Below are positions 3,733 to 54,287 of a stretch of 64,000 bases of DNA, one piece after another; positions within the stretch are counted from its first letter, which is position 1; the number at the start of each line of letters is the position of its first letter. A program made the position numbers and the translations under genes. Below the pieces are notes generated by a model, which saw nothing but the letters and a program-made list of their open reading frames with translations, was not told where the DNA came from and did not search any database. The stretch is from Loxodes magnus. Lineage: Eukaryota > Ciliophora > Karyorelictea > Loxodida > Loxodidae. The stretch is taken from contig CAMPDV010000147.1 in NCBI GenBank assembly GCA_946699065.1, positions 434,001 to 498,000 on the forward strand, written 5' to 3'.

Positions 3733-3760
3733 GATGTAAACAATATTAAAAAACAATTTA

Positions 3761-3776: not shown

Positions 3777-3790
3777 AAAAAAAAAAAAAA

Positions 3791-4561
3791 ATGGAATAAT
3801 CTATTCGCCTTTCCAAAAACCAAATTAAGAACGCAAAAAGGAAAGCTGCGAAACTAATGCAGAAACAATAACAAGAAGAAGATAAATCAAGTTCCTCATC
3901 TGAAGGAAAAGTTATAATTGGAACAATAGAGACGAATCCAGTAAAAGTACAAAAATAATCAGAAATCTAAATATAAATTGACTAAATGAAAACAATAATA
4001 CAAAATTATTAGGAAACAATTTACAATCAAGGGGAAAAAATAAGAGAACTAATGAATACTATCGAAGATTAAAACAACGAGCTACTAATAATAAGACGAC
4101 AATTAATTTAAAATAATTTAGTCACGGAATAGTAACTATATGAATAATCTCAATCGAATTTTAAGCAAGAACAAAATATGATTATTGAAAAAGTTTCTAC
4201 ATAAACAAACATCCAAGAAAAATAGAATGACGAAAAGATTAATATAGAATTACTCCAAAGAATCGATTAACTTGAAAAAAAAGTATTTCTGAAGAGATTC
4301 AAGAAAAGACCAATCAAAAATTGCTATTATTGCAAATCAAAGTGACACCTATTACAAAATTGCGATCAGTGGAGATAAATTTAGATGAAAGAACAACAAA
4401 GAACGTTAAGAATGCTTAGCAGACTCTGAATCACCGAAACGGGAATTTACAAGAAGAAGATATTCTTATAAAAGACAGAAGATTCTCAGTGGTTCCATCC
4501 ACAAAAAAAAATGGCGTGGTATCCATCCACGCTAAAAAAATGGTAGCAAAAACCTGGTTGA
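3791..4561 (+). CDS. Gag-like coiled-coil, CCHC zinc-knuckle protein of retroposon A1
   Basis: One frame is open throughout with TAA/TAG as Gln. The N-terminus is basic (MEQSIRLSKNQIKNAKRK), followed by a serine patch SSSSSEGK shared by all four family A copies. A Gln/Glu-rich coiled coil follows, then a zinc knuckle C-x2-C-x4-H-x4-C at residues 178, 181, 186 and 191, with a TGA-coded Trp just before the His. The knuckle suggests nucleic-acid binding, as in retroelement Gag or ORF1 proteins. The end is uncertain: in-frame TGA occurs at 4427-4429 and 4559-4561, and either could be Trp or stop. The later one lies in the loop of the third 3' hairpin. This is the only family A copy with an unbroken frame. 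Confidence 0.6.
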
Positions 4562-4570
4562 AAATCCAGG
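4489..4570 (+). other. Three-hairpin 3' structure of retroposon A1
   Basis: Three consecutive short hairpins lie at 4489-4502 (GTGG/CCAC), 4515-4531 (CGTGG/CCACG) and 4553-4570 (CCTGG/CCAGG). Equivalent hairpins occupy the same place in copies A2, A3 and A4, with changed loops and mostly kept stems. This is a candidate signal for reverse-transcriptase recognition. The region also reads as a Trp-rich protein tail, so both kinds of constraint may act. Confidence 0.7.
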
Positions 4571-4616
4571 GAATGCTAAACTTTAATTACTTTTAGTTTA
4601 CTATATATCTATATAT

Positions 4617-4632
4617 AAAACATTACTAACGT
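4617..4632. repeat. Target-site duplication, right copy, of retroposon A1
   Basis: Exact second copy of AAAACATTACTAACGT. LINE 3' UTR sequence resumes directly after it. Confidence 0.93.
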
Positions 4633-4635
4633 CTA

Positions 4636-4663
4636 TAATTGAAAGAAGCAATTCTTGCAATTA
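4636..4663 (+). other. LINE 3'-terminal hairpin
   Basis: TAATTG pairs with CAATTA and an inner AAGAA pairs with TTCTT, leaving a GCAA (GNRA-type) loop. The outer stem is kept in LINE copy 2 near 57,360-57,385 while the inner stem is weaker there. LINE enzymes often recognise a 3' stem-loop of their own RNA; that role is inferred here. Confidence 0.5.
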
Positions 4664-4700
4664 AAGACGTCAAAAAACTCTTTTAGTTTAAATTTAAATT

Positions 4701-5455
4701 TTTGTTGAACTTTAAGTATTGCTTTATTTGCCTATTTATAGTTTTAATTTTTCAATTTTTGTTTTATCTTTATTTAATCTTTATTTGTTTATGAATTTTA
4801 TAGATATTTATTTCTTGTATTTTACGAATTTTTTTTTTTAATTATTAAATTATTTTTTAAATAATTTTCAATTATTATTTAAATTAAAAGTAATTAAATT
4901 AATTTTCTTGGCACCTTTAGAGAAATATATACATTAAAGCTATTTATGATTTTAATATTTATTTTTTATTTCTTAACTGTATAATTTAAATTTTCTTATT
5001 TTATGTATCATTTTTACTAATTACTTGTTTTTTTATTTGTTTTATAAGGTTTTAATTTAAACTGCTGACTTAAAAAATGTTCTGAAAATATTGTTTTTCT
5101 ATTTATTTTATTTTTATAAATTAATTGTATTATTATATTTATAATTAAATTTTTTAGGCTTTAATTTTTACATAAAAACCAGAAACACTTTCTCTTATCA
5201 CGTCTTAACTTCAATAAGTCCAACTTTCTTCAAAGCGAAAATTAATAAGAAAGAAAATCTAAAAAATTTAGAACAGAAAAGTAAGCATAACTCTAAACAC
5301 CTCCATTGAAAATTAAGAAAAGAGATTACTCAGCAGAATCACTAAAAGTAGTAATTAAAAAATCAAAAATAAATGAATGATGAGCAATGGTTTTCAAATA
5401 AAAGATTAGATAGAGGATAATAGAGTTATAAATTTTTTTAAAAATACAATCTAAA
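4701..5455. other. AT-rich intergenic stretch
   Basis: Long T and A runs. No conserved frame or RNA was recognised before the tRNA. Confidence 0.6.
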
Positions 5456-5528
5456 GGTCGCATAGATCAGCTGGTTAGAACGCTGTGCTAATAACGCAGA
5501 GGTCGTGAGTTCGAGACTCACTGTGACC
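5456..5528 (+). tRNA. tRNA-Ile (AAT anticodon), D-stem mismatch
   Basis: The 73-nt cloverleaf has acceptor arms GGTCGCA/TGTGACC, anticodon loop TAATAAC and the T-arm motif GTTCGAGAC. A T run follows, as expected for RNA polymerase III termination. Compared with the convergent copy at 6523-6595 it differs at two D-stem positions (GATC/GAAC instead of GCTC/GAGC), which leaves an A-A mismatch inside the D stem and in the box A promoter. It may be a weak gene or an early pseudogene. Confidence 0.9.
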
Positions 5529-6087
5529 ATTTTTATGCTAGTCCTAAACTAAAATAAAATTGGTAAAATTTAGCAACATCAGAATTTATTAATCTGCCAT
5601 TTTCTAAATTATAACTGACAAGAATATAAAGATAAAATAATTATTTACACTATCAAATTCTTTATTATTTTGTTAATTTTTATAAAATGTATCATAAATC
5701 AAAGTTAGAAATTCATTTTCTTTGGCTAGAGATAACTAACATTATCATTTAGACCTAAAATATGAGATTAAAAGTCAAATTGTGATAAAATTTAAAATAA
5801 TTAAATATTTTTAGATATAATAGACTGGTTCATTAAGAAAAAAATTTATTTTTATTTGTTAGTAATTTTAGAAATAGAAAAACTTTAACTTTTCATTTTA
5901 TTTTCCATAAAGTATATATGATAATAATTTTATATAAAATTAAAAGCAAAATATTCTTTAAGATTATTAAAAAAAAATAAGAGTTATAAAATGAATTTCT
6001 ATAAATGAAGAATAATAACTAAATAAAGGTAAAATTGATTTCATTGAGTTAAGATAAATCAAGTAAATTATTATATATTTATTAAAT
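5529..6087. other. AT-rich spacer
   Basis: No gene seen. Confidence 0.5.
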
Positions 6088-6425
6088 CGCATAGTTGTTC
6101 GAAGGTGAACAACAAGGGACTGCTTCATCAGAGGTGGGGAATTTAAGTACCCATAATTGACACATGTCGTCCTCTGCTTTGGTGATGCAATGAGACATAA
6201 TCCTGCCATGTCCTTGAATCTCCAACAAGTATTAAAGATTACGAGTATTCTAAAATTATATCAGTTTTGAACATTTTTATCAGTACTGAATAATTATACC
6301 AGTATTGAACAAGGTTTATCAGTATCTGATAATTTTATCAGTAACAAACATTCTTGTCAGTATGAAACATTTTTTTAAAGAGTTGTGCACAAACGAGAGT
6401 GCTACGAGCTCTATAATAAAATTTA
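6088..6425 (+). mobile_element. Hairpin-tailed SINE-like retroposon, type I
   Basis: This unit is repeated in inverse orientation at 13651-14128. Its 3' end carries the shared hairpin (6380-6412) and then a T/A-rich (TTTA)-like tail running toward 6,520. The body includes a GC-richer block matching the other copy around 6,120-6,215 and a run of short CAGTA/TGATA motifs at 6,260-6,360. No polymerase is encoded. The 5' edge is set by where the two copies stop matching. Confidence 0.75.
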
Positions 6426-6522
6426 TTTTTTTATTTATAATAAAATTCAATGCAGGAAATTCATTTTTGGAAATAAAAATGGCAAAAGTTAGAATATTTT
6501 TATATATTTATTTATAAAAAAT

Positions 6523-6595
6523 GGTCACAGTGAGTCTCGAACTCACGACCTCTGCGTTATTAGCACAGCGCTCTAACCAGCTGAGCTATGCGACC
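6523..6595 (-). tRNA. tRNA-Ile (AAT anticodon)
   Basis: A perfectly paired cloverleaf with D stem GCTC/GAGC, anticodon loop TAATAAC and T-arm GTTCGAGAC. The minus-strand 3' side continues ATTTTTTA, a polymerase III terminator. It faces the copy at 5456, and the 5' flank CTAAAG is shared, so the pair arose by inverted duplication. Confidence 0.96.
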
Positions 6596-9500
6596 TTTAG
6601 TAGACTGTTTATGAAATATTTAAATAATATTCTTACTTTTAATTATAATTTTCGAATGTTTTAATTTATAGAATTATCCTTTGTTGGCTATAGAAATTAA
6701 AGATTTAAAAATTTTAAAAATCTTTATAGTTTAAGAATATTAGAACCATTAACTATAAATACACTGATAGTTCAATAAGAATTAATAGTAAGATAATTAT
6801 AATTAATCAATGCGTTAAACAGCAGCTACTAATAATTTTAATATCTAAAGCCGAAGCATTAAAATCAGATAATAAATTTATTATGCTAATAAAAAATTAT
6901 TAATAAAATAAGAGGAAAAAGGGATTTATAAGATTTATTCTTTTTAAATTAAGCTTTTATTATGCTTTTATTTTTTAATTTAATTTAATTTTCGTATTAT
7001 ATTGGTTTAAAATTAACCTTGATACCAAAAGGAATTCCTTGTGATTTTTTCTTTTAGTCTGTATTATCTCCAAGGCTTTATTACTATGCTTTTTTATTCT
7101 CATTTTCCTAAATTTTTTATAATAATCTAAAAATTTAAAATAAATCCTTATATTTTATTAGGCCAATAACTTTAAAAATTTTAGTTTTAACATTTAAATT
7201 TAATTTTCCTTAGAATATATTAAAATAGCAAATAAAATTAATTATTTTTTTAAAGTTTTCTTTCTAACTTTTATTATTTAATTTTCAATTCTTTCCATAC
7301 TTAGGAAAAATATTTTGCTAGATGGTAATCATTCAATAAGCTTGCTTTCATTACAAAAATTCGAATTTCTTTTTTCTAAATTACAAAGATTAGAATCTAA
7401 AAATTTAGTGTAAGTTTTGCTTAATCAACTTTTATTTTTAGAGTACTTATCATTCTTTTTAAAACTAAATTTAAAAAGAAGCTTCTACTAATGAGTACTT
7501 ATTAAATTTTACTAAATACTCATTATTTCAATTGTTTTTATATTCACTAAAAACTACTTAGTTTTCTAATTTTTGGTACCTGCCATCATCCTATAGTTGC
7601 TATTTCACTAAATTTTAGTAGCTGCCATATGTAATTAGCGAACTAAATAGATAATAACGTGATTAATTAAGGATTGCTGTAATTATTATTTACTTAGAAG
7701 CTTATTTTGACTAAATTTAGAGATATTTTGCTATTACTTTGGATGCCTTTGCTATGTTTACTACTCTAAAATCATATTTTATAGCTATTTGGTTTTACTA
7801 ACTTATAATTCTCATTTCGCATACTTTTTATCTAAGTTCTTTTAAATGATTTACTCGCTTATAGTGCTTCGTTACTTAAATCAAGTTGATCCATATTATT
7901 TAAAAAACTAAATTATAATAAAACTAGATATATCATCAAATACCAAGATATTCAAACTTAAATTAAAATTAAAATCTCCATACAGCAAATAAAGCACCCA
8001 AAGAAACCAATTATAAATTTTTATAATTTTCAACATAAACTAAGTTAATAAGATACTTTTATAAAAATGATGGGCAGCAAGAAGTAATTAACTTATTAAA
8101 TTAATAGAATCTAAGTATACTTCCATATGTAGATTTATGTGACTCAAGATTTAATATGCCAAAAGTTAAGCTTATATCGATATATATGGACTATTAGAAA
8201 ATTATTAAATCAATTAAGAAAATTTAATATAAAAAATCTAAAATCAGCACAAAGAGAAAAATAATAAATGAAATAAATTTAAGCTATAAGGATAAATTTA
8301 TAAAGCTGAAAAAATTAATTAAGATTTAGCTTAATACTTAATTTCTCTTTATGATTATCAAAATTCAACTAAATCTATATAAGCAAAATTAACTTAATAG
8401 TTAGGGATCTCTCTCAATTTATCTGAAAAGGACTCATAGGTTTCTAAATAACCAAGATCAAACATTAAATCTCTCTAAAAATGTAAATAATAACTTTTGG
8501 CAAATATTAATAAAATTCAAACATAATAAAAAATAAAAAATAGAAAAAATAACAACTGTATTTTTAATAATTAATAATTAGCTTAAATAGCTTAAATATC
8601 TTATATTATAAATTAAAATGATTTATATTTAATGAAATAAATATTAGTTATTAGCTATCTCTAAAATTATTATTTTCATATTTTTACTATTTTTCCTTAT
8701 TTTCTATTTTTGATTTGCTTTATTAATTACAACTTTATTAGTATTATATAAGGCAATTATTATTTTTATTGCCAGCTTTATTAAAATTCAATAATTCAGT
8801 TATTACCTCTTAGATGATTAAAAAATGCATGAATATAAGATTTGCTTTAGCAATAAAATAGAAAAATAGAGAAATAGTATTAAACTTTATTCAATTAGAT
8901 ATTTAATTAGAATTTTTTATTTTATCTATTTCCTTACAGACTAAAGAGCAAACTATTTAGGAAAAAAAGAAGAAAAATTGCTAAATATTAATTAAAAATA
9001 AATCTATTTGGATATGCATATATTAGCATAATCTCTTTTTAAGTTTATTTTATATATAATAGAAAATTCTATTATATATATAAAAAAATGAATTTATAAA
9101 TTAAATTTATCTCAATTTGAAACAGTAAATCAAGTATAAAAAGGAGAAAAATATTTGATATTTGCATTAAATAACTTAAATTTTTATTATTTGTATGTTT
9201 TAAATTAATTAATAACTTACCATATAACTACTACTATATAAATAATTATTTTATTATTAATGTTCTTGGTCTTATCGATTTAATTTGGATTATCAACGTA
9301 AAGGTGTTCAGGATATATTTAAAAATTATTAATTATGAAGTTTTTATTAAATGCATATAAATGAATTAAAAGGAAATTTAATAATTAAATCTCTAATCTT
9401 TTAACTAGTATTTTATCAGCTTTTTAATATTAAAATCCCCATAGCGAATAAAGCTTATTTTAAAATAGCTTAAACAATTAAGTATTTCATTTAATTATTC

Positions 9501-10552
9501 TCAAATACTCAAGTTATTTGATTATACCAAGTAAAAATATATTCAAGTCTCAATTTTTAATAGCAAGAAGCATTCAAATTTATATTTTCTCTTGCTTTAA
9601 TCTAATAAACAAAATTTAACAATTTAACTATTTCATTGATATACATCAAACAATCTTTTAAATGAGCTATTTATTAAATAAATTAAGAGCATGGTAAAGT
9701 TTATTTGTTCATTGTAGATTAATAGCTACATAATTACTTTCTTAATATATTATAATATTAGAGCAATTTTATCAAACACTAAAAGATAATAAACTAATAA
9801 TTTCATTTAGCTGCTTTTAATTTCCATTAGATTAAAAATATTTCTTAAGAAATTTAATTCTTTAAGAAATTTTATTTCTTTTTACAAACTTTACTATCAA
9901 CATAGATCTTATTCCCATATTTTAAAATTTGTTCTTTATCATTTTAAAATGTATTTATTTCCTTAAAATTGGTATTCCATTTGCTCTTAGTTAAATTTAA
10001 AAGCTTTTTATTTTAAAAATGGTTCTTATATTTCATTCTATATTAGCAATCTTGCAAGAAATTCGTTGCTTGATATCGATTTTATTCTTAAAAGGTTTTT
10101 CTTAATAAATATTAGAATCTTTCAAATAATTATTTCTTTTTAAGGTGTTACTATAACTTATTTAATTTATATTTTCAAGAGATTTAGAATTTATCTAAAT
10201 TTGTGTATTCTTTACTCTAGCTTTGAATAATCAAATTATTTCACTTGATATTTAACTTTTAACAAGCTTCTATCACTTTCCTATTTTTATAGAATATCAT
10301 TTACTAATTTTACTATTAATAGCCTGACTCTAAACTTTAAGGTTAATAGAGATTTATTTAAATTTTATTAATTATATTTCTAAAATAATTATCAAGCAAA
10401 TGCAAGATATTAGATTAAAGAAAATAAAGAAATATCACTGCTTACACTTATAATTAGCATTCTTCAAGTATCTAATAATTATTTCTATTTAAGTTAATAA
10501 AAATAGCTTTTAAGATTATATTAAAAATAAAGCTTTAGTTATTAGATAAAAA
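6596..10552. other. Long AT-rich intergenic region
   Basis: About 4 kb with no frame I could tie to a known family. Because TAA and TAG are sense codons, long open frames arise by chance here and are not evidence of genes. Confidence 0.5.
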
Positions 10553-11104
10553 TCATAATATTTTATTGTAATTTCCTCTTTTTGGATATAATTGATCATG
10601 CAACCATTGAAATCCTTCAGCAACTCCTTCTCCTTCGTAATTACTATAAAAAAATTAATATTTTTTATCTTTTATTTAGCTAAATTAAGATTTATCGAAA
10701 GCACGATCTTCATTTTATAAATCTGTTTTGTTTAGATAGAATAAAACAGGGATGTTTTTATCTATTTTTGTTAGAAAATCAATCATTTCAGTACAATCTT
10801 ATGTTTTATAAACATCTTCAACATAAATCCAAGCGTCAGTCTTAATTTATTCTGTATAGTTTTGGAATTCCTTGATGTCATAAGCTTTATTATTAAAATT
10901 AATGATAGTTTGCTCAATAGTTTTGCTCTCTTTAAATTATTATTTCTTCCTATTATTTTTTAAAAAATAAATCAAACTTGATTTTCCTGACCATTTGGGT
11001 CCAACAAACACTACCGTTTTTTCTTCTTCAATTTCCTTTTCTTTTTGTCTGTTTAATATTTCTGGTTTTTACTTTTAACAATTATAGCAGATGCAATGGC
11101 CCAT
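10553..11104 (-). CDS. Arf-like small GTPase, divergent
   Basis: A 183-residue frame from ATG at 11104-11102 to TGA at 10555-10553, with TAA as Gln in several places. The P-loop GPKWSGKSS lies at about residues 35-43 and the base-specificity motif NKTD at 125-128. The C-terminal segment G-F-Q-W-L-H-D-Q-L resembles the last helix of the Arf/Arl/SR-beta family. Such proteins act in membrane traffic or targeting as GTP switches. The switch II D-x-x-G-Q motif expected between these is not recognisable: that region reads KEFQNYTEQ. The N-terminus carries a short Cys cluster (MGHCICYNCQ) instead of a clear myristoylation glycine or TM anchor. It stands alone between intergenic stretches. Assignment to Arl rather than SRPRB is open. 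Confidence 0.8.
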
Positions 11105-12636: not shown

Positions 12637-12708
12637 AGCGGGGTAGCGCAGTGGAAGCGCGCTGGGCCCATAACCCAGAGGTCGGTAGATCGAAACTACT
12701 CCTCGCTA
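12637..12708 (+). tRNA. Initiator tRNA-Met (CAT)
   Basis: A 72-nt cloverleaf starting with A at position 1 and with three consecutive G-C pairs at the base of the anticodon stem (GGG CCCATAA CCC). The T arm TAGATCGAAAC has A at the positions typical of eukaryotic initiator tRNA. Acceptor arms are AGCGGGG/CCTCGCT with A as discriminator. A T run follows. A weaker copy is at 30732 and a decayed one at 21899. Confidence 0.95.
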
Positions 12709-13650
12709 CTTTTATATACTTAATTTTAATATATACTATAATTGAATCTAAAGTCTATCTAAATTTTAATAAAGCTTTATATTGTGTTTCTCAAATAATA
12801 ATCAAACTTTATATCATATGATTTAATTTAATATTCTTTGTTACAACTTAAATAAAGAGTATTTTATTCTAATAGAGTGTTATTTCTGGCTAATATAAAT
12901 AAGAGAAGATATTTGTTAAATTCCTCCAATTTACTCCTATTTAAAAGCTGGTATAGTATTCACCTTGCTAAAGTTTTCTTTTATCATTTTTTATCCTTAA
13001 AATCATTTGCTATCTATTATTTACAAAAATATTTTGATTATTTTTAATTCTCTTAGTTATGAAAATTTATTAAAAATACCAACACACTATTCATCATCCT
13101 TCTTGGAATTAGAACTACGTTAAGAAATTGATAATTGCATACTTGGATCATAATTAAAAAATTATTTATATAGTTATAAAATAATTAAATGTTTTTAAGT
13201 GAAAAGCTAGCTTAAATTTTTAACTTTACTATTAAATAATTTTATTTTTACTAAGCTAATAATAAAAGATATATTAATTTTTTAATTTATTTAGGTTTTT
13301 CATGCTTATAATACTTCTATTTTATCAAAGATATATTAAGCAAATAAGATGATAATTTTTATTTTATATTTAAATTTAATTGTTTTAAAACAAATTAGAA
13401 GGTATTTTCAAGAGAAATTAAGGAAATATTTAGAAATAAAAATTAATTCACTATTTTTTTAATTTTAAACATTGCAAATTACTAATATGTTTTAGAATAT
13501 TTATATATCAATGCTTTTTAGCAAAAGACCATGCTAAATTAAGTGGTTAGATTTACTCAAGAATTAAAAACTCTTTTATAATTTGATATTTTAGATATCA
13601 AAAAAGAATAAAAATAGAAAATTTTAAATTTTATAATAAATAAATAAATT
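12709..13650. other. AT-rich intergenic region
   Basis: No gene seen. The last 30 bases are the (ATTT)n-like tail of the minus-strand retroposon that follows. Confidence 0.5.
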
Positions 13651-14128
13651 TGATTATAGAGCGCGTAGTACTCTCATTGGTGCGCAGCTCTTTAAAAAAT
13701 GTTTCATACTGACAAGAATGTTTGTTACTGATAAAATTATCAGATACTGATAAACCTTGTTCAATACTGGTATAATTATTCAGTACTGATAAAAATGTTT
13801 TATACTGATATAATTTTAGAATACTCGTAATCTTTAATACTTGCTGGAGGTACAAGGACATGGCAGGATTGTGTCTCATTGCATCACCAAAGCAGAGGAC
13901 GACACGTGTCAATTATGGGTACTTAAATTCCCCACCTCTGATGAAGCTCGCAATATTATTTCTTTTTCGTTCCAGAATTAAAAATAAACGAAACCAGTGC
14001 CGAAGGTCTAAGAATCTTATGTCTCGAGGCCAAACCAAAGCAGAGGAAGACATAAAGTCGATTATGGGTACTTAACTTCCCCAACCTCTGATGAAGACGA
14101 CCTTGTTGTTCACCTTCGAACGATGAGC
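13651..14128 (-). mobile_element. Hairpin-tailed SINE-like retroposon, type I, with internal duplication
   Basis: Inverted copy of the element at 6088-6425, sharing both ends and the central block. On the minus strand the 3' hairpin (13659-13690) is followed by an ATTT-repeat tail (about 13,622-13,650). It is about 140 bp longer than the other copy because the central block has been duplicated. The minus strand is open for about 90 codons through the body, but no known domain is visible. Confidence 0.75.
13876..14097. repeat. Imperfect tandem duplication inside the SINE-like element
   Basis: The block beginning near CACCAAAGCAGAGGACGACA and ending in CCCCACCTCTGATGAAG (about 13,886-13,945) recurs at about 14,032-14,097 with several substitutions. 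The copy at 6088-6425 has the block once. Confidence 0.75.
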
Positions 14129-28300: not shown

Positions 28301-30199
28301 ATGTAAGAGGATTTAAAGTGTATTGCTTGCTAAAGTTAAATTACTTCCTTGGCTGAAAACCAATTACCTCAAATATAAAATTTCTTTATTTGCTAAAAAT
28401 GCTCTGAAAATCAATTATAAACGCATAAATAAAGTGAATGCAGTTAATGCTAAAATTGCCTAGATTGTGACTACAGACAAAAGGAGGATCTAGATGGTAA
28501 AAATATTCTTAATGAAGCAAAAAATGAAGAGATAAAGTTTTAGTAAAATATGCAAAATTTGAAAGATCAGTGTAATATTCTTATAGAACTAAAGCAAAAA
28601 GTAGTCAACTTATAGAATTAAATTTAGGCTAAAGTTCATAATTGAGTAACAAAGGTTTTATTTTAGTAGAGTGACTAATATTAAGATTAGCTAAACAATT
28701 TAATTTCTTATCTCGAGCAAAGATAAACTTAAATTAAATTAAATTAATAATAAGAAAATAAAGAGCTGAATCTTAAATCTTTTGATATAGATAATTTTAT
28801 TGAAATAGAATCACTTGAAAGTTTAAAAGAAAAAGGAAAATCTGAAATAAAAAAGTTAGAATAAATAGAGCAAAATTTAATATATTTAGTTGACTAATCT
28901 TATGAAACTTTGAATAGTTATGAAGGAGAATTTTTAAAAGGTAAAAAGCATGGTTTTGGAATACAAAAGTATAAAGATGGAAGTAGATATGAGGGATAAT
29001 GAGTAGAAGATTAAAAATGAGGAAGAGGAATTTACTATTATTCTAATGAAGATATTTATGAAGGGGAATTCCAATTCGATTAGAAACATGGATATGGAGA
29101 ATATAAGTTCAAAGATGGAAGAATATATAAAGGAAAGTATACATTTAATATGATTCAAGAAAAAGGTATTATGCAATATCAGAATGGGGATATTTATGAG
29201 GGAGAATTTTCCTAAGGACTAAGAAATGGATATGGTATATATTAATTTAAAGACGGTAGAAAATATGAAGGGTAATATGTAAGTAATTGAATGTAAGGTA
29301 AAGGAATTATTTATTTAGAAAACAAAAAATAGTATGAAGGAGAGTTCTTTAAAGGTTATAAGCATGGATTTGGAATTTAAATCTAAATGGACGGTAGCCG
29401 TTATGAAGGTTAATTTGTCGAAAATTGAATGTCGGGTAAAGGACGCATGGTTTATGACAGCGGAGATTTATATGAAGGGGAATATAGACAAGGTTTAAAG
29501 CATGGGTATGGAGTTTTTAAATGAAAGGAAGGAATTAAATATGAAGGGTTTTGAAAAGAAGACACAAAATGAGGAAAAGGAAAAGAATATTATGATAATG
29601 GAAATTTTTATGAAGGAGACTTTTGAAGAGGTAATTTTCATGGATAAGGAATATTTTCGTGAAAAGATGGAAGAATTTATGAAGGATAATTTTAAGAAGG
29701 TAAAAGATAAGGCAAAGGAATTGAGCATTGTCCAAATGGTGATATATATGAAGGAAAATACTTTAATGACTGCTTTCACGGTTATGGAATTTATATATGA
29801 TAGGATAAAAGAAAATATGAAGGATAGTTTGAAGAAAATAAAGTAAAAGGTAAAGGAACTTTATACATACCAAATGGAGATGTTTATGAAGGAGATTTTC
29901 AGCAAGGCAAAAAACATGGAAATGGACTTTATAGATAATCTGATGGAACTATTTACGAAGGATAATTTTAAGATGGCAAAAAATAAGGAAAAGGAAAATT
30001 AACTTATGCTAATGGGGATATTTTTGAAGGAACATTCGAATAAAATTTATAACATGGATTTGGTCTATTAAAATGCAAGGATGGAAGATGTTATGAAGGA
30101 TAATATTCCATGGGAAAAAGAAATGGAAAGTTTACTTATACAAGCGAAAGTGGTTAATAGGAAGAATAGCTTTGGGAAAACGATGCTAAGATTTAGTGA
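28301..30199 (+). CDS. Zinc-finger / coiled-coil / MORN-repeat protein
   Basis: A 632-residue frame from ATG at 28301 to TGA at 30197. Residues 7-56 hold a Cys/His cluster (C7, C10, C31, C34, H42, C47, C50, C53, C56), like a B-box or RING-type zinc finger. Residues about 60-205 form a Gln/Glu/Lys-rich coiled coil. From about residue 207 to 625 there are 18 consecutive MORN repeats of 23 residues (Y-E-G-x-(F/W/Y) ... G-x-G). MORN proteins bind membranes or scaffold cortical structures; the zinc finger with coiled coil suggests an oligomeric scaffold. Many MORN Trp residues are TGA; the last sense TGA (29798) lies 133 codons before the stop. Several reading frames on both strands appear open here only as shadows of the repeats. 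Confidence 0.93.
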
Positions 30200-30731: not shown

Positions 30732-30803
30732 AGCGGGGTAGCGCAGTGGAAGCGCGCTGAGCCCATAACCCAGAGGTCGGTAGATCGAAACTACTCTTCG
30801 CTA
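30732..30803 (+). tRNA. Initiator tRNA-Met-like gene, weakened copy
   Basis: Nearly identical to 12637-12708. One change (CTGAG for CTGGG) breaks one of the three G-C pairs that mark initiator tRNAs. A second change turns an acceptor pair into G-T. The T-run terminator is kept. It may be a recent duplicate beginning to decay. Confidence 0.85.
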
Positions 30804-42865: not shown

Positions 42866-43565
42866 CAAAAATACAAATAACTAACTTTTTCTATATAAAT
42901 ATATTTAAAATAATTTTAACGAAGATTCTTTAATTAAATAGCTATAAATTATTAAAATTTAAAATAGATAAATAAAATAAAGAAGGCTAGCATAAATATT
43001 TCTAAATAAATAAATAATCCCTCTTAAACAAGTAGATTAATCATAAAAATAAAAATATAATATATTAAAAGTATTTTAAGCTTGTAAATAAATGAAATAA
43101 TAAGGAAAATTAATTTAAAATTAATTATTCAAAGCTAAGTAAATAATGAAAATCCTTAAATATATTTAATAATTAATATTGTTAATTTTAGAAATTAAAT
43201 TTTATATTAAAGTATCATTGGTATTGTGATAATGTATAAAACTATTTAAAATATATATAAAATATATTAATATCTTTAATGTAATTATACTGAGGAAATT
43301 TAACTTCAATAGATTTTATATGCATTATTAGCTTTCTCTTTTAACCATTTTAAATAATTATTAAACAAAGAAATATTTATAGATGATGATAATAACAATT
43401 AAAAAGGAAAGAAAAACAATAATCGTGCAATAAGAGAATAAAGAGTATACATAGAAGATAGAGAAAGGATAGAGTAAATGATAACAAGCATTACAATATA
43501 GAAAAACATGATTTGATGAATATATAGTAGGACCACCCAACTACCTGAAATATAAATAAATAAGT
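42866..43565. other. AT-rich intergenic region with retroposon tail
   Basis: No gene supported. The last 30 bases contain the (TTTA)n-like tail of the minus-strand retroposon beginning at 43,566. Confidence 0.5.
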
Positions 43566-43880
43566 AATAAATAAATGAGATTATAGAGCGCGTAGCACCT
43601 CAATGGTGCTCAATTCTTTAATAAAGATTTTTAAAGTTAAAAAATTCCTTGCTGAAATCTTCCACAGTGCCAGCATTCCCTTAAGAATTTTGTCTTCTAT
43701 AGGGCCGTGATCGGAATGCTACCCTAAGAGACTTTAATATCTGGCATCTTTCATCATTAATGCTACTTGATGTCTCTTCGATCTTGTCTTCTCTTCTCTT
43801 GGCTGGTTCTTCATCTATGGGGTACTTCAGGTACCAGAGTTTAAATCAGTTTCAGTTGAATGATTGGTCCTCCCTATTTA
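43566..43880 (-). mobile_element. Hairpin-tailed retroposon, type II
   Basis: About 310 bp, matching 58931-59236 on the opposite strand along its full length. Its minus-strand 3' end is the shared hairpin (43586-43617, inner stem AGCACC/GGTGCT) with a TTTA tail beyond. The body is GC-richer than the surroundings. On the minus strand it reads as a short protein containing C-W-H-C-G-R, possibly half of a zinc knuckle. Confidence 0.75.
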
Positions 43881-43904
43881 TTTATATTTTATATAATAAA
43901 AATA

Positions 43905-44330: not shown

Positions 44331-45715
44331 AAAAGCTAAATCAAAATGTTTTTTGTGCTTTGAATAAGGTTAACTAATTAAATTATGAATAAGTAAAAAA
44401 CAAAAAGAATAAGGCAAAAGCAAGGATAAATGGTTTTGAAATAGTTATAAAATTAAACTAAATCGGATTGAATCATTAAAAAAGTGAAAGGATGCAAATA
44501 GAGGAAATAAAGATTGGAAGTAAAAAACCAAAGAGAAAGTATGCTATTATAAAGTTCTCAGAAGTATGTTTGCAAAAATTTTCAAAATTTATAATTTTCA
44601 AAGTAAATATTAAAAGAGGAATAAAAATAAATAATAAAAAATAATGAAATAATTTATAGAAATAGCAAGAAAAGCTATAATGTAATGAATTAGGATAATC
44701 ATTGAGATAAATTCATATTAATACTGACAAAGAAAAAATAAACAACAGAGAATTAGCCAAAAAACTATTTATCAATGAAAAATAAAAATCTTCACCAAAA
44801 ATTATAAAATATTGGAGAAGATCGCTAGGAAGGAGATGAAATGCTTTAAGATCACAAAAATCTAAAATATCTCTAATTTGCTTTTAATTGCATGGCTTTT
44901 ATGAGGAACATCTAATTATATTTTGTTATTTCATCATTTTACATTTTATGCTTAAAATTTAAATTTTAATTGATTAATAAATAACAAGAGATAATGCTTA
45001 TAAAAATAAAAGCACCAAAGCTTAATTGATTTAGTTTGTTTTTGTCTAATATATAAGATACTCTTACTTCATTTTCTTAACTTGTAAATAACTTTAGTAA
45101 AATTAAAAATCTACAAATTAACTTTTCCCATAATTCATTATACAAAAAAATTCAAAAGGTTTTAATATCTGATTTTTAAATGTATGGGTAAAAAGCAATA
45201 AAATATAATAAACAAAATAAATAAAAATAAAGGAACTAGGTGATTTAGTAATATTCTAAATAGAAATAATTCCTTACTTTATTTAAAAAACTCTTAGAAA
45301 TTTTAATTCTGGTACCTTAGTTACTAGATTTTGTATAAAATTATGAGGTTTAGTTTCAATTTATTAAGGCACAATTATATATTTAATCAGCATAAATAAA
45401 AGTTAAAACATGTAAGTTAGGATATATTTCAATTTATCTTTATATAATTTATTCAAGTTTTAAGATAAAGAAATAACAAGCTCAACTTTTAATACAGCTT
45501 ATTTATTGAATTTTAATATTTTTAAATTTATAAAGCAAAATAAGACAATTTATGAATAAAAAACGTGAGTAAGCTGCTATTTACATTAACTCTTTTCAGA
45601 TTAGTTAAAGCAAGAAGCAAAGAAACAAATATGCTTTTTGTGGAGTTGCTAACATTTTTTTTTAATCAAAGTTAAAAAGTATAATAAATAAATAAATATA
45701 TATATATAAATAAAA
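44331..45715. other. AT-rich region, possibly degraded retroelement
   Basis: Open, Lys/Gln-rich frames continue to about 44,900 without recognisable motifs. The rest is plain AT-rich sequence. Confidence 0.4.
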
Positions 45716-46135
45716 ATGATTATAGAGCAAGTAGTACCTCATTGGAGCGCAGCTCTTTTAATATTAATGTTTAATATTAAGAAAAATGTTCTCATGTTTC
45801 TTTTTAAAGATCTAGTAGTCTAATAAGTCATGTCAGCTTCTCCAAATGGGGAATCTACTTATTAAAGGTTTTTCTCGAATCTTAACCAAAATGCTCCAGT
45901 CTTCTTGAATAAGGTCCGAATAAGAATTAGTTATTAAGTCATTAATTAGAAGGCCCGTCAGTCAAACTTTCATTCTACTAGTGAGAACCTTCAGGCAAGT
46001 TAGGCTTGTCTCTTCTAGCTTGTCCACCCGTCCCTGTGGTGGCATATAGTGCGAGATTACTCGCAATGCAGTATACACTGTACCAGGCTGCCTACTAGGT
46101 CTCCTGACCGTTGGCGACATCCATTTTAAATATAA
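45716..46135 (-). mobile_element. Hairpin-tailed retroposon, type III, with short ORF
   Basis: The minus-strand 3' hairpin (45725-45755) and ATTT tail match types I and II, but the body is unrelated. One minus-strand frame is open across the element, starting near M-S-P-T-V-R-R-P-S-R at about 46,120, if the TGA near 45,960 is read as Trp. The block at about 45,950-46,125 is strikingly GC-rich for this window. No known domain was recognised. Confidence 0.65.
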
Positions 46136-46151
46136 TATTATAAGAGAAAAA

Positions 46152-47880
46152 ATGAAAAAATCTACCAAGAATTTTAAGAAAATTGAATTTAGTTTAAGTA
46201 GAAAATTGATAAGCTATGAATAGATTTCTAGGATTTAAATTAAATTCAAAGTTAAAATCTAATTATCCAACACTAATTCTTATTTTATTCAGTTACTTAA
46301 CACTTTTGAGATCCAGCTTATATTTTTTCAGAATGTAAGTCTAAAGGATTTCGACAAAATTGAAAGCTATGAAACCTTCTAAGTTAAACTCGTAAGCATA
46401 GAATAAAAATAAAAAAGTTAGTATTAGTAACTATTATAATTCTTTCAAGATAATAAAAAGTTATAAAAATTATAAATTAAAATTTTGTTTAATTCTTAAG
46501 CAATCCAAAGAATTAAATTATTAGAAAAAAAATGGAAAATTGCGCGGTAAAAACAGAATAGTCGATTAGACTTTCTAGAAACTAAAATAGAAAAGCAAAA
46601 GAAAGGTGGGTAAAGAAAAATAAAATTAGATGATTACATCAGAATCTAGTTCTTCTTCCAAAGGTAAAGTGATGGTTGGAATGTAATAAATAGAAGAATA
46701 AAAAAATGACCCATATTAAAAAATCTAAAATTAAGTCGTGCAAATGAAAAAATAAATTTCCTGATACGAAGAAGCCATATATAACCAAAGCATATAAATA
46801 AAAGAACTTATGAGTAATATTGATTTTCAGGATAATGAATTAACAATTTTAAGAAAATAACACATATAAAATCAATTAATAACAGAAGAATAATTATGAA
46901 GATAATCTTAATCAAACTTACCCAATAATTAAATAATGAAATTAGAAAAAACTCCAACTTAAATAAAAAAAGAAGAAATCTCGTAATTAGAAATTCAAGA
47001 TCGGAATATAATAAAAAGATTAGGAAAGATAGAAAACAAGATATTTATAAAATTAATCAAGATAAGAACTTAAACAATGTTGATACTGCAAATCAAGATT
47101 TCATTTATTAAGGAAATGCATAACTTGAAAAAACTGAACAAAACAGAACAAAACAGAACATGAATTTAAATTAACAAACTTTGAATTACATCAAATGGAA
47201 TTTATAAGAGAAAAATATTTGCTGGATGGACTGAAAATCAACAGTGGTTGCCTACCACTTAATCAAAAAGGTCGTGGTATCCATCCTCGTTAAGAAAAGG
47301 GCAGCAAGTACCTAGTTGAGATTCAGAGAATGCAAAACTCTTTTTTTACATTTATTTTATAATCCATTAATTAAAGAATTAATTTATTTCAAAATTAAAA
47401 ATGAACCAATTTTAAATAAAATTTTGAAATGTTTATATCTAAAAACTTAAAAACTATGGATATTTCAATTAAAAATAAAAATTCTTTAGAATATTAAAGC
47501 TAATAGATTTATAATAGATAAAAATATAATTAAATTATAAAAAATAGCCATACCTAACTAGTAATTTATCTCACAAATTTTTCTTTATTAGGATAATCTA
47601 ACTTATATAAACTAATTCTTTAATAATTTATTTTATATTTCTAATTTTATAATTATCATATTTAAAGAAGTTAAATGAGAGAAAAAGACTTCATATATAT
47701 TATTATAACTTTCACTATCTATTAGATTTATCATTCAATTTAGTCACATCTTTAGATTAAAAGAAACTGATTTCTTTCATTAGACGAAATTTAAAAAATT
47801 ATAGATTTGGATTATTAAAATTGAAATCCTAATAAAATTTAGAGTTTATAATTTTATAATTTTTAATTAAAAAAGAAGTA
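46152..47880 (+). pseudogene. Open frame interrupted by retroposon A2, unknown host sequence
   Basis: A frame starting at ATG 46152 is open to the left duplication of A2. The same frame resumes across the right duplication (47373-47388) and stays protein-like for some way, with Leu/Ile-spaced segments. It may be a host gene or another retroelement split by A2. No family was recognised, and open frames are cheap in this code, so confidence is low. Confidence 0.3.
46523..47372 (+). mobile_element. Family A zinc-knuckle retroposon, copy A2 (850 bp)
   Basis: Bounded by 16-bp repeats at 46507-46522 and 47373-47388 (15 of 16 identical, AAAGAATTAAATTATT versus AAAGAATTAATTTATT). The ORF starts at 46532, 9 nt from the 5' end. 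It carries the serine patch SSSSSKGK near 46,660, a coiled coil and a knuckle C-W-Y-C-K-S-R-F-H-L-L-R-K-C with TGA-coded Trp near 47,080, but frameshifts separate these parts. Hairpins 1 and 2 of the 3' structure are at 47243-47259 and 47273-47289. Confidence 0.8.
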
Positions 47881-48855
47881 AAAAAATGTAAGAAATATTG
47901 AATTCACTAGTTTTTAATAGTGACTCTTCTTTAATTAACTTCAAAGAAGCTGCAAATTCATAGAAAAAACACAGACAGGTGCAATAAAACCTCCAAACGA
48001 AAAATTTGGAGTCGCTAAAAACTAAATAAGTAAACCTAATAATGAATTTATTAAGGTATCTACTTAAAATTGTAGTCTAAAGCCGGAAAACAAATTCATA
48101 CGCATTCTATTAAAAATGCTTAGAAACTCTCTTCAACATGGGCATTAATTGTAGCATATTATGAAAGTGAAACAAACTTATAAATAGATAAACAGATTAA
48201 CCGCCTAAAATAGCACCACCAAAGATATGAAACAATTACCCAAGAAATCTTTCTAAAAATAAAATATTATCTCAGATAGTTAGAATTCTAAAGATATTCC
48301 TTCAAATCCTAATTAAAATACAAATAAAGATATCCTTAAATGGTAGAGAAAAAGAACATAAACTTAAGATTCATTTTTGAATAATACTAATTAATAATTC
48401 TATTAAATTTCAAATAACGAAATTAGTCAGAAATAAAATAATATTACTAATCCTGATAATTCAAATAATCATTATTTATCTGATCTTTAGAACAAACAAC
48501 CTTAAAATTAAGCTGCTGATTTAAGAAATGTAATATAAAATCAAATAATTAATTAGTCTAATGAGAACTTATTTACCTTAGAAATAAAAGAACTTAAACA
48601 TAATATATAAAGACTTATAGATAAGAACCAATAATTAAATGAAATGTTAATTAATATAAAAGCAAAATATGAACGAGATATTGAAACATTGATAAGTAAC
48701 TAAGAAATATCCAAAATATATTATAAAACTTATATAAATAAAATTTATTAGAAATTTAAACTATTATAGAGCAATTTTTAGTCAATCAAATTTGATATAT
48801 AGCAATATCACAAAAAAATGATATCAAAATAACTAGTTCATAAAATTACTTAAAC

Positions 48856-48866
48856 AAACTTCTCCA
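48856..48866. repeat. Target-site duplication, left copy, of retroposon B
   Basis: AAACTTCTCCA, repeated exactly at 49834-49844. Confidence 0.85.
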
Positions 48867-49833
48867 ATTAAAAAAATGTTGAAAAGTTTCTATACCACCT
48901 CTTCCTAAGCCAAAAAGGAAGGGAGGAAGCAGGAAACCATTTCTTGGCAGTCGACTTCTTCACAATTTTAGCCTTTTTCTTAATATTAACAACCTGGAAT
49001 TTAACAAAGGGAAAGAAGAAAGCTCAAAAAAGCAAGCATACTGAAACACCGACTTCACTAGAGAAGCCCAGAAAGCAGGCAAAGTCTGCTTTACACCAGG
49101 AAGTATCGGAATTTAATCCTTCTGGCCAGATAAGCATGGAAAAGCTCATCCAAGTTGTACTAAACCTCCAGAAAGAGCTCAAGAGACTAAAAAGAACAAC
49201 GACAAGCTAATGGAGAATCAGAGTAAGCAAGAGGAAATCAAATCAAGAATTATGTCCTAAGAAAGGGAATTAAGTGCATTTTGGAACATATCACAGAGCC
49301 ATAACTGCTAATCCTAAAATAAAAAATAGAAACAGACTGAGCTGGGCAACAAGCAGGGAGAAATAGAAGAGAAATTGCAACAGCAAATGAAACTTAATGA
49401 GCAAAGAGATGATCCAATGCTGATAGAGGTAATTTACAAGAAGAAGAAAGCTAAGCCAATCAAAGTAGTTAAAAGGTGCTATTATTGTAATTCAGAGAAA
49501 TACCTAAGAAGAAGATGTGAGTAATTCCTAAACTTTAAGAACCAGTATTTGAGAAAATAAAGGAAATAGCAAGCGTAGCAAAAGCAAAAGAGACAAATAT
49601 ACAAAGGAAAATTAGAGAGAGACTATCCATGAACTAGTTTGGAAATATTTATAGGAAGAAATCTTTGCTGAACAGAAGACATAGTTAGAGACAACAAGAA
49701 CAAGTGAGTGGGAGAGGAGTAGAGATTTCTAAACCTTTTTTTAATCCCGGAGCAATCTGGGACTTGCATGAAGATGAAGAAGTGAAAATGCTCAAAAATT
49801 GCTAAACTTAACTATTTTAATAATAATAATAAA
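48867..49833 (+). mobile_element. Family B gag-like retroposon (967 bp)
   Basis: Bounded by a perfect 11-bp duplication and ending in a TAATAATAATAA-type tail. It is clearly GC-richer than the surrounding LINE. It encodes a gag-like protein distinct from family A and no polymerase. It lies in the ORF1 region of LINE copy 2. Confidence 0.85.
48944..49730 (+). pseudogene. Gag-like protein of retroposon B, frameshifted
   Basis: The N-terminal part reads through a hydrophobic stretch and a Lys-rich segment to E-F-N-P-S-G-Q-I-S and a coiled coil ending near 49,165. There the sensible frame shifts and continues with E-E-K-L-Q-Q-Q-M-K-L-N-E-Q to a knuckle-like motif C-Y-Y-C-N-S-E-K-Y-L-R-R-R-C at about 49,482-49,523. 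The zinc-binding His of C-x2-C-x4-H-x4-C is Tyr. The tail is Gln/Lys-rich. The true start is unclear. Confidence 0.65.
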
Positions 49834-50064
49834 AAACTTCTCCACTTATTACAGTAGTTAAATTGTTTAAACAGATGAAATAATTAGTATAGTTTAAGAA
49901 ATTTAGATGTAATAGAAAAATTATAGAATTAAATCAATTCAATAGATGAACTATAATCTAATTAAGAGATTCAAATTGAAGCCAATGCTAATTAAAGCTT
50001 TATTTAGCTTAAATGATAGGAGCAAATAATTCATAATGATAAAACTTTAATAAATTATAAATTT

Positions 50065-50907
50065 AGAAAAAAATATGGAACAGAACATTAGACTCTCAAA
50101 AAATGCTGCTAGGAAGGATAGAAGACAAGCAGTTAAATAATCATGTAAAACAGAAAAAAAAGCAAGAAAGTTCTAGTTCAGAATCAGAAGGTAAAATTAT
50201 GACAGGCTTTGTGGAACCAGAACAAGATATTACAGAGTTTCCCATAGAAATCCAAAAAATGATTGAGGACTTGAAAAGGGTAATTAAAAAGCAAGAAGAG
50301 ACGATTTTCAACTAAAGTTGTCAAATACGCGAATTAACCACTAATATTAATGAAAATAATAATGAAATGGATATACTTAAAATATAACTAATCAAAAATA
50401 AGCTAGTGACCCATGAACAATTATGGCTTTATCCAAATAGTATTCAAAAAGAAATTCAATGATGGAAATTGAAAAAAATTAAATTGAAGTTTAAAAAGAA
50501 AAGAAAGCAGAGCCTTAAATTATTAATCCAAAATTCGAAGAAAGATTACAAAAAATAGAAAAAAAAATTTGCAATTAGCCGTTTAATTACACCTATAGTA
50601 AAAAGATATTGATATTGCAATAATTTGGTATTATCTTCTTCGAAACTGCTGAAAATGAAGAAAATTAAATGAAAGAGAACAACATAGAACTTGACGCCAA
50701 CTATAACAACTTTGTATAACAGAAAATGGTATCTACAGTTAAAAGCTTCCAGTACGCTATATTGAAAATACAAAGTGGTAACCTCCCACCAATAAAAAAG
50801 GTCGTGAAATACAACCACGTAAAAAAACTTGTCTGTAGGTATCTGGTTGGAAATCCAGGGATAGCAAACCTTTAAACATTTTAGTAAAAAAAATATATAT
50901 ATAAATC
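50065..50907 (+). mobile_element. Family A zinc-knuckle retroposon, copy A3 (about 843 bp)
   Basis: The ORF start at 50075 (MEQNIRLSKNA) and the serine patch are conserved, but a frameshift follows within about 30 codons. The knuckle near 50,605-50,650 is degraded: the first Cys is Tyr and the His is not visible in frame. Hairpins are at 50775-50789, 50803-50819 and 50843-50858. Flanking ATAAATTT at 50057-50064 and 50908-50915 is a plausible but short duplication; the implied length agrees with the 840 bp of A1 and A4. Confidence 0.75.
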
Positions 50908-53432
50908 ATAAATTTTACTTAAATTGAAACAGAAAAACTTTCTGAATAAAATTTAGCAGTGATAATAATAGATTATATTAGAATAGAACTAATATTTACT
51001 TCAACAAGTTACTTAATAAAAAATAATAACCGAAATTTAACTCCAAGAGTTATATTCTTAATATTAAAAATTATAAAACTAAAATAAGAAATTTATAGAT
51101 TAAGAATAGAAAGCTTAAATGGAAAAAATAACTTTGAATATTGAATTAGATAAGTAAAGATAATAAAATTATGAAATAAATATAATTTTTCTAAATTAAA
51201 TTCTATTAAAAAACAAGGAAATTCAAATGATTAAAGAATTATTTCAAAATTAAATCTAGCATACAAAAGAAATTAGTAATTAATAGTAATTTTAGAAGAA
51301 GTAATTTGTAGATGCATAAACTTAGACATTATATGGAAATATTTAAGTAAAAGATAGTATTATCTAAAAAGATAATATAAATAAATAATAAACAGATTTT
51401 TTATGTCAAAAATTTACTCAAACAAATATAATCAAGCAAGACAAGTTAATGTAAACTTAAAATAATTAATAGGAAGCATAAACTAATACTATTATAACAT
51501 AACATAATAACTAATAATGTCAAGTTAAATTGCCAGATGAAGATTTTGCTTTAATATAGTATTAATATCACTAACGAAACTTAAATTTCATTTAAAGTAC
51601 CCAAAATATATAGACACTTGAGATAAAAATAGAGGATTTTTAAAAACTTAATTTAAATTTGAAAAAAGATATATATATATAATTATTCTACTAAAAGCTG
51701 AAAAAGGATTAATAAAACTAAACAGATTTGATTGATGTTATTTATCAGTATTAAACCTTACCTTCCAATATTAATCTTAATATTCTTAAAAGGAAACATG
51801 AAGAAGAAGATAAAATAATTCCACCAGCAAAATGTAAGAGTAAACATAATAATAAAAAAGAGTGTGATTAAATAATATTTTACTTCAATCTAACTGGTCT
51901 ATAACTTAAAATATTTATTAAATAAGAAATTTGAAGACGTCCATAGTATGAAATATGCAATATATAAGGTAGATATGTCACAATTACTTAAGATTTTGAG
52001 AAAGGTACATGTGATAGTTTATAAAAATAAAATTGATATAGATAGAAAGTTACTTAATAATATACGATGTAAGTAATATATATTTTGATACAATACTTTC
52101 ATTAACATCCTGAACATGGAAAAAGATTAGTACGAATTTAGATTAAATAATAAGGAAAAGAATACCTGCATTTACGAAAGTGGACTACTTGCAGGATCGG
52201 AAAAAATTAGAAAGGACTAATAAATTTAAAAAATAAAGATGGGACATATAAATATTAATGGAATAGCTAGCAAGTGCTTGAATATTGAAGAATTTATCAG
52301 AGATAATAGTATAGATATTTTATCAATAAACGAAACCTGATAAAAAGAAGATTTTCCTTCAATATTGATAAATGGATTTAAAACATATTTTAAGAACTCA
52401 GAAAAAGGAGGAGGTGTATGCTTAATTGTAGGAGAAGAATTTAATAGTACAGAAATACATATATAAGTTGAAAAAGAAATAAATAGATTCATAACAATTA
52501 AACTGGATAATATTTTAATCACGTCTTGTTACATGCCTGATAGTGGAAAAAGTTAAGATGTTAAAGATTTAGCTTATGAACAACTAAATACATTGCTGAA
52601 TTTATATAATGATAATCCACATATACTAATGGGAGATTTCAATGCTCTTTTATAAGGTTTCGGTGATAATCCTGAAAATGTTTATGATAATAACATTAGA
52701 CTATAAGAATTCTTACTATAAAACGATCTTGAGATAGTGAATGATAGTAACATTAATACATGTATACACAAAGGAACAGGAAAAATGTATGTAATGATTA
52801 TATCATTATAAACAACCATTTGAACGTTAATTAGTTTGCAAATTTCACTGCTCATATAATAATTTATTTTCTGATCATATTCCAATCACTGTCTATTTTA
52901 TCTATAATTCTATAGTCTATTGGGAAAAGATAACTCAGAGAAAATATAAAATTAATAAGTTATAAGATGCAATAGATAGGCAAAAACATTAAGAGGTTTT
53001 TTTACAAATTTATCTAGAATTCTGTTAGATAGATAAAGATAATCTTGAAGGTAAATATGAATACATCAAAAGTAACATTTAAGAAAATACTGATTAATCA
53101 TTAGGTTCGTTTATTCCAAACCCAAATTATAACAAACTTCCTCGAAATCTCACAAAGAAATTCATAGAGGCAAAAAGAACTAATTCAGAAAAAAGGAAGC
53201 TCACATTAAATTTGGAAGAAAAAACTAACTAGTAACTAATCTTCATGAGACAGCGAAACTACTTTAGAAAGATTTCAAGTATAATCTGTGAAAATAAAAA
53301 TTTCAATCCAAAAAAGAAATTTCTACTTCTTAATGGAGATTCTAAGGAAATATTTTCACAATCTAAGAAAATTCTAAATTCTAATAAAAGAAATTAAATG
53401 AACTTTAATTAAGAAATTAAAAATAAATTCGT

Positions 53433-53447
53433 TGATTCATGGGAGAA
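53433..53447. repeat. Target-site duplication, left copy, of retroposon A4
   Basis: TGATTCATGGGAGAA, repeated exactly at 54288-54302. LINE copy 1 has the uninterrupted site near 1,543-1,557. Confidence 0.93.
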
Positions 53448-54287
53448 AAAAAACTGGAAAAAATGGAGCAAAACATTCGACTTTCAAGAAACCAAATTAA
53501 AAACGCTAAAAAGAAAGCCACTAGAGAATTATTGAAAAAATAACTAAAGAAAGAGCATTCAAGTTCTTCACCTGAAGGAAAAATTATGATCGGAACAGTT
53601 GAAATGAACGAATCTAAATCTGACAATGACCCACAACTGTAAGATCTACTACAAAAAATGAGGAAGTAAATATCTAATTATGAGGAAGTTATCTATAATC
53701 AAGGAGAAAAAATCAGAGAACTTATGAATAATATAGATGACTAAAACAACGAACTACTGATATTAAGTCGGCAATTAATCTAAAACAATTTGGTTACAGA
53801 ACAGTAACTATATGAATAACCTTAATCAAACTTTAAATAAGCTAAAAAAATGGACATTGAAAATGCTCCTTTCTAAAAATAAGAAAAAATAATTAAAATA
53901 TTTATACTCTAGATACAAGTATAATAAAGATAATTGAAAAAATTGAATAAAAAATCTTTTAAAAAATATATGTGTAAAGTCAAAAGAAGAAATGTTGATA
54001 CTGCGATTAATATAATCACATTTTGCGGCAATGTCAAGAATGAAAAAAATTTAAAATATCAGAAGAAAAAAGAATGTGAAGAAATATTAACAAATTATGA
54101 TTAACTAAAACTGGTATATACAGGTAGAAATTAAACATAAGAAACACCGAAAATCATCCGTGGTAACCTCCACCAAACAAAAAGAGGTCGTGGTATACAT
54201 CCACGTATAAAAAAATGGCGGAGTGAAACTGGTTGGAAGCCCAGGGAACTCCAAACACTTAACTTTTAGTTCATATTATTATTATTA
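53448..54287 (+). mobile_element. Family A zinc-knuckle retroposon, copy A4 (840 bp)
   Basis: A clean insertion between LINE endonuclease and RT, with a 15-bp duplication and an ATT-repeat tail. The ORF starts at 53463 (MEQNIRLSRNQIKNAKKK), is most similar to A1, and carries the patch SSSSPEGK. The knuckle reads C-W-Y-C-D-Q-Y-N-H-I-L-R-Q-C near 53,990-54,035, with TGA as Trp, but lies in a different frame from the start because of an indel near 53,910. Hairpins are at 54160-54173, 54189-54205 and 54229-54244. Confidence 0.92.

Follow-up and report, generated by a model that had tools for sequence, protein, structure and literature searches.

Non-autonomous transposable elements usually shed their genes. 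Three described systems encode an ORF1 or Gag protein without a reverse transcriptase (RT). HAL1 of mammals is non-autonomous and encodes ORF1p only, as described in PMC5753468. TRE5-A.2 of Dictyostelium is without all of ORF2 and, by the account in PMC5391098, is apparently mobilised in trans by the ORF2 protein of TRE5-A.1; a TRE5-A.2-like construct carrying ORF1 moves in trans too (PMC5391098). HeT-A of Drosophila telomeres encodes only a Gag-like protein (PMC3776773). In addition, the short element SIDE Persaeus of Lepidoptera has its 3′ end in common with its partner long interspersed nuclear element (LINE), CR1 Zenon (PMC6740152). Here, we analyzed a stretch of 64,000 nt from the ciliate Loxodes magnus (contig CAMPDV010000147.1 of assembly GCA_946699065.1, forward-strand positions 434,001 to 498,000), hereafter called the window; ~2,700 RT domains are given for the host genome in PMC11441545. 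The window carries four copies of a short element, family A, whose single open reading frame (ORF) encodes a gag-like protein. A preliminary description of this DNA held that no described family has such a layout; this claim had to be given up, because HAL1, TRE5-A.2 and HeT-A have it. Our analysis indicates that family A very probably consists of gag-only, non-autonomous retroposons without long terminal repeats (LTRs), copied in trans by a LINE.

Re-reading of the window recovered all four copies where they had been placed, each on the forward strand. A1 (3777..4616) is a full-length element of 840 nt with a 5′ A-tract, three 3′ hairpins (4489..4578), the tail CTTTTAGTTTACTATATAT.. and a target-site duplication (TSD). 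Its ORF (3791..4507, the end being drawn provisionally at the start of the hairpin region) encodes a predicted coiled coil, the knuckle CYYCKSKWHLLQNC and a tail module that runs to GIYKKK. The other copies are A2 (46523..47372, ORF from 46532), A3 (50065..50907, ORF from 50075) and A4 (53448..54287, ORF from 53463). As described before, the ORF starts close to the 5′ end, with the ATG at 14, 9, 10 and 15 nt in A1 to A4, and the target-site repeats are perfect in A1 (16 nt) and A4 (15 nt), matched at 15/16 positions in A2 and short in A3 (~8 nt). The reading frame is open in A1 and frameshifted in A2, A3 and A4; open frames in family A require TAA and TAG to be read as glutamine and TGA as tryptophan. 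The unit measures 840-850 nt: an A-tract leader is followed by a single ORF and a 3′ end with RNA structure, and a short AT-rich tail closes it. When the ends were read by eye, neither LTRs nor terminal inverted repeats were seen in family A, the A-tract lying at one end and the AT-rich tail at the other. The four copies in the window are separate retroposon insertions of ~840 nt each.

Two of these insertions interrupt copies of one LINE family, LINE-W, of which the window holds LINE-1 and LINE-2. A1 is nested in LINE-1, and the paralogous LINE-2 is uninterrupted at that target (empty site near 57356). Reciprocally, A4 is nested in LINE-2, and its target is uninterrupted in LINE-1 at 1540-1554. 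For a third insertion, the A1-type copy L018, the joined flanks (190 nt) gave two full-length, insert-free matches on the same contig at 99% and 98%, and at the filled site the match is broken into pieces that have the 17-nt TSD as their overlap. A precise empty site was seen for all three insertions examined. The L018 empty sites probably lie in duplicated segments, so that this insert would be younger than the duplication.

Genome searches covered the 705.7-Mb assembly in 7,843 contigs. For each DNA query the best 40 candidate places were scored (150 for the RT family), the query copy being counted in; copy numbers are candidate counts, and places may overlap between queries. The assembly contains 3,171 candidate places for A1, 2,826 for A4, 2,365 for A2 and 1,231 for A3. 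Among the best 40 of each candidate list, window copies included, 160/160 scored places covered nearly the whole element, the shortest being 788 nt. Tool-rounded identities in these lists, with the query excluded, were 100% for A1-type, 95-97% for A4-type, 92-94% for A2-type and 85-91% for A3-type copies. The median divergence was 0.12 percent for A1-type and 3.0 percent for A4-type copies, figures that are biased to young copies because they come from the best-scoring places only. The near-identical copies are probably of recent origin. Repeated or evenly spaced matches were observed on contigs C95, C621 and C373, suggesting that the elements are carried along in tandem or segmental duplications.

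The borders of the element were analyzed in 54 of 56 fetched A1- and A4-type copies (L053 and L056 were dropped, the anchor being missing). In 39/40 distinct insertions the flanks contain a direct repeat of 10 nt or more (median 15 nt); when flanks of different copies were paired as a control, such repeats were present in 29/400. At the 5′ border, an A-run immediately precedes the ATG. It comprises 8-37 A in the 26 distinct insertions of A1 type, where the leader length varies over that range (e.g., L005 and L033), and 5-8 A in 14 distinct A4-type insertions, some with a further A-rich leader upstream. The 3′ border is TTTTAGTT followed by an AT-rich repeat tail. The copies could in principle be the 5′-truncated ends of a longer LINE, since 5′ truncation is common in LINEs and the 3′ end of family A resembles that of LINE-W. 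However, an A-run of at least 5 precedes the same ATG in 54/54 parsed copies, beside TSDs in the 39 insertions above, with the proviso that best-match lists favor full-length copies; we regard truncation as extremely improbable for the sampled copies. The flanks were compared at the DNA level with seven LINE sequences, including one with a B element inside it (see below), over 1.5 kb for 16 loci and ~200 nt for the rest: 45/54 copies had no match to any of them and 9/54 matched one. Among the 54, nesting in LINE-W is confined to the A1 and A4 copies of the window, and the flanks contained no constant RT-bearing neighbor. The preliminary description had considered that copies embedded in a longer, RT-bearing element would speak against a separate unit; no such embedding was found, the unit being bounded by TSDs and most flanks matching none of the seven LINE sequences compared. 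The L015 copy sits inside a B-like element.

The ORF was analyzed by omega, the ratio of nonsynonymous to synonymous substitution rates (dN/dS). Between the A1-, A4- and A2-type ORFs, omega was 0.30 (0.17-0.46), 0.28 (0.16-0.48) and 0.27 (0.15-0.44) over ~220 codons up to GIY, values that are approximate because dS is 1.1-1.6; intervals are from the bootstrap, with 998, 929 and 958 of 1000 replicates kept and those with undefined dS dropped. Identical letters read in other frames gave 0.86-1.36, and on this comparison chance open frames were rejected. Judged from these ratios, the A ORF is under purifying selection, the outcome that the earlier proposal of a dN/dS check had asked about. Past GIY, omega between subfamilies was 0.43-1.18, which fits a coding constraint ending where the hairpins begin. 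Within subfamilies, omega rests on few changes and was 0.27 for A4-type and 0.71 for A2-type copies. Frames were scored as intact by a pattern test (a knuckle followed by the GIY motif within the ATG frame), and this was so in 27/28 A1-type, 15/26 A4-type and 3/5 A2-type copies (5/8 A2-type loci being parsed); the six fetched A3-type copies are all frameshifted. At two conserved tryptophan codons of 15 A4-type copies, TGA and TGG occur 13 to 2 and 14 to 1, an exchange that supports TGA as tryptophan. The TSDs and omega support the earlier proposal of a retroposon unit that lacks a polymerase, has borders of its own and retains a gag-like ORF under selection.

Features conserved in the alignment of A proteins are a basic N terminus, a patch of serines, a region resembling a coiled coil, the knuckle CX2CX4HX4C (7/7 aligned proteins) and a tail ending in GIY[KR]xK. 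As the preliminary description had noted, the knuckle has decayed in the window copy of A3; among A3-type relatives it is kept in 4/6 (L112-L115, three of them with common flanks), L116 and L117 each being one Cys short. An AlphaFold model, of low overall confidence, contains long helices and, C-terminal to the knuckle, a further helix with a hairpin of two strands; the helix predicted at 50-107 has block means of 83-90 in the predicted local distance difference test (pLDDT) over most of its length. No RT or apurinic/apyrimidinic endonuclease (APE) domain was matched in the A proteins with Pfam, and the unit is too short for either. A search of ~5.8 billion proteins returned 143 candidates, none with an E value of 1 or below. 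Among solved structures the best E value was 0.13 (secretagogin), and nucleocapsid knuckles were at 0.82-0.99. The A protein is probably RNA-binding.

The 3′ region was analyzed by pairing and covariation. Across 13 sequences that represent four subfamilies, 94.1 percent of cells in hairpins two and three are paired. In the third hairpin, 3/4 pairs of the outer stem show compensatory changes. The covariation score was 0.257 vs 0.108 in shuffles (0/500 reached it) and 0.05-0.12 in slid controls, the scored structure having been drawn from one of its own sequences, which favors it over slid versions. On this comparative evidence, a 3′ RNA structure is conserved in family A.

Because selection kept the gene working, the A protein probably helps the element to borrow the enzyme of another transposon. 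In the mechanism that we propose, the A mRNA would be translated, and the protein would multimerise via its coiled coil and bind its own element RNA via the knuckle and basic segments. The resulting RNA-protein particle may recruit a LINE-encoded APE/RT protein, and this protein would nick DNA and reverse-transcribe from the structured 3′ end, i.e., target-primed reverse transcription in trans. Alternatively, the ORF might be unneeded for movement, the 3′ hairpins alone conferring mobility like that of a short interspersed nuclear element (SINE) and the protein serving something else. Many copies have broken frames, and for SINE retrotransposition ORF2p alone is described as sufficient, with ORF1p perhaps enhancing (PMC2666806). 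However, the same source describes an Alu transcript driven by RNA polymerase II that requires L1 ORF1p as well as ORF2p, and selection on the ORF between separately spread subfamilies would be difficult to account for if the source copies had no need of it. This alternative thus appears improbable to us.

LINE-1, a copy of LINE-W (1..4700, forward strand, 5′ end outside the window), has an APE domain in 337-1338, an RT domain in 1640-2650 and the 3′ end ACTCTTTTAGTTTAAATTTAAA.., and is interrupted by A1. LINE-2 (51899..57430, forward strand, its start being where the LINE-1 match begins) is interrupted by A4 and B; no convincing TSD was found for it. LINE-1 and LINE-2 are 85-91% alike, and LINE-W carries both APE and RT domains. 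The LINE-W 3′ ends read AACTCTTTTAGTTTAAATT.. in 13 copies, and that of A1 reads CTTTTAGTTTACTATAT..; they have the 11 nt CTTTTAGTTTA in common, a length reached in 9/2000 shuffles. A2-type and LINE-W ends have a different 10 nt in common (26/2000 shuffles). The main LINE family has a 3′ hairpin, found in 29/30 RT loci; its end had nothing notable in common with the A ends. These comparisons only suggest LINE-W as the likeliest partner of family A. Full copies of the main LINE end in a GAGCTGCGCACCAACGAGGTGCTACGCGCTC hairpin followed by (TTTA)n, and fragments like its 3′ end lie in the window at 6122-6450, 13601-13722, 43552-43897, 45674-45790 and 58908-59276.

The common 3′ end of A1 and LINE-W also bears on the origin of family A. 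It would be expected of a half-LINE, that is, an element that arose by internal deletion from an autonomous LINE of Loxodes with the A protein as its ORF1. The named precedents arose in this way (HAL1 from L1, TRE5-A.2 from TRE5-A.1), and only a small number of LINE families were read over their whole length. Such an origin is compatible with copying in trans. On the other hand, the LINE-W ORF1 compared with A gave an hhalign probability of 0.1. A hidden Markov model (HMM) of the C-terminal module scored at least 14 bits on the LINE strand in 5/34 LINE loci (L058, L074, L087, L089 and L090), and where checked these matches lay outside the LINE-homologous stretch, upstream in L058, L074 and L089 and, for L087 and L090, downstream past the LINE 3′ terminus. 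In the remaining loci the best LINE-strand score was 9.3 bits. Of the 34 loci, 30 include no more than 1.5 kb of sequence before the RT and stop short of ORF1. We consider a half-LINE origin unlikely, though less so than the other alternatives.

Several points weigh against gag-only retroposons copied in trans by LINE-W or another LINE. The LINE-W 3′-end match is short, it is weaker for A4 (9 nt, 68/2000 shuffles), and A3 gives no signal (7 nt, 772/2000). For the 3′ structure, two of five covariation measures were not above shuffles (double-change pairs 342/500, further pair types 264/500), and single-sequence folding was exceptional only in A1 (z −4.2; A2 −0.7, A3 +0.7, A4 −0.4); the run of 3′ hairpins claimed earlier thus stood as to compensatory changes and covariation, but as to folding of single sequences for A1 only. 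For the protein, the AlphaFold prediction scores low (pLDDT 62.6, predicted template modeling score 0.25), and zf-CCHC was below the Pfam cut-off in one A4-type protein (E 0.016) and unlisted for the A1- and A2-type proteins. The other Pfam matches of the same A4-type protein were likewise below cut-off (Fib_alpha 0.00054, DUF16 0.0062). Finally, dS between the subfamilies is high enough to blur omega, and intact A4-type copies have no in-frame TGA after the module.

Family A has candidate relatives. Element B (55014..55891, forward strand, ORF from 55028), a second gag-only family lying in LINE-2, has a C-terminal module in common with A. The assembly contains 2,269 candidate places for B, and 40/40 of the best 40 scored were near full length. 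In profile comparisons the A module matched B with E 9.7e-5 (probability 58) and a B-like element in L090 with E 1.1e-6 (probability 91). The module HMM, whose training set comprised A, B and the L090 element so that matches to these are by construction, further matched L058 (E 2.4e-10), L089 (E 1.2e-10), L074 (weakly) and a gag-like module in the window at 60302..60901 (forward strand, WYCKRPGHKVRSC ... GKLYRK, E 4.5e-8), for which element borders and a TSD were looked for and not found. The same-strand matches in L058, L074 and L089 are upstream of LINE-homologous DNA, and an opposite-strand match in L089 lies in a LINE gap; because they are outside the LINE-homologous stretch, these modules are read as separate elements. 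The knuckle-helix-hairpin module was absent from every LINE ORF1 read. Tentatively, and at somewhat less than even confidence, we propose that A, B and the L090, 60.3-kb, L058, L074 and L089 elements form a gag-only retroposon superfamily, a Gag lineage of its own with one knuckle-helix-hairpin module, independent of LINE ORF1s, each member being tailored to the 3′ terminus of the LINE that lends its RT. The window copy of B has a degraded knuckle, and B-type elements begin within ~100 nt 3′ of two LINE ends, L087 (the same place as L057; 1/30 RT loci) and L090.

A SINE with a recognisable tRNA, 7SL or 5S head was also considered and rejected: Rfam at the gathering threshold gave four tRNA genes in the window (5456-5529, 6522-6595, 12637-12708 and 30732-30803), none within A1-A4, in a scan not aimed at degraded RNA polymerase III boxes. 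Two of these genes form a 98% inverted pair. The window further contains a tandem array at 28896-30139 with a 69/138-nt period, the repeats being coded in one frame.

In comparison with the described systems, family A differs from each. HAL1 derives from L1, whereas the A protein matched no LINE ORF1 compared. TRE5-A.2 is a clear derivative of TRE5-A.1 and inserts upstream of tRNA genes. HeT-A is several kilobases long. It transposes to chromosome ends only, according to PMC3776773, whereas A inserts internally with TSDs. For SIDE Persaeus, the term "ORF1" is absent from the main text of PMC6740152, and no gag-only coding claim was found there. Such an element was likewise undescribed in the literature found on Loxodes retrotransposons and ciliate nonautonomous non-LTR elements, as covered by titles, abstract openings and passages of PMC11441545, with few subscription papers. 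What is new in family A is its host, its unrelated protein, the lack of a parent LINE among those read and the signs of a superfamily. Set beside HAL1, TRE5-A.2 and HeT-A, it offers a gag-like gene kept by selection in a polymerase-less element, in an RT-rich genome with near-identical copies, and this makes it possible to test why a LINE parasite would retain an RNA-binding protein of its own and whether Gag modules can evolve apart from LINEs.

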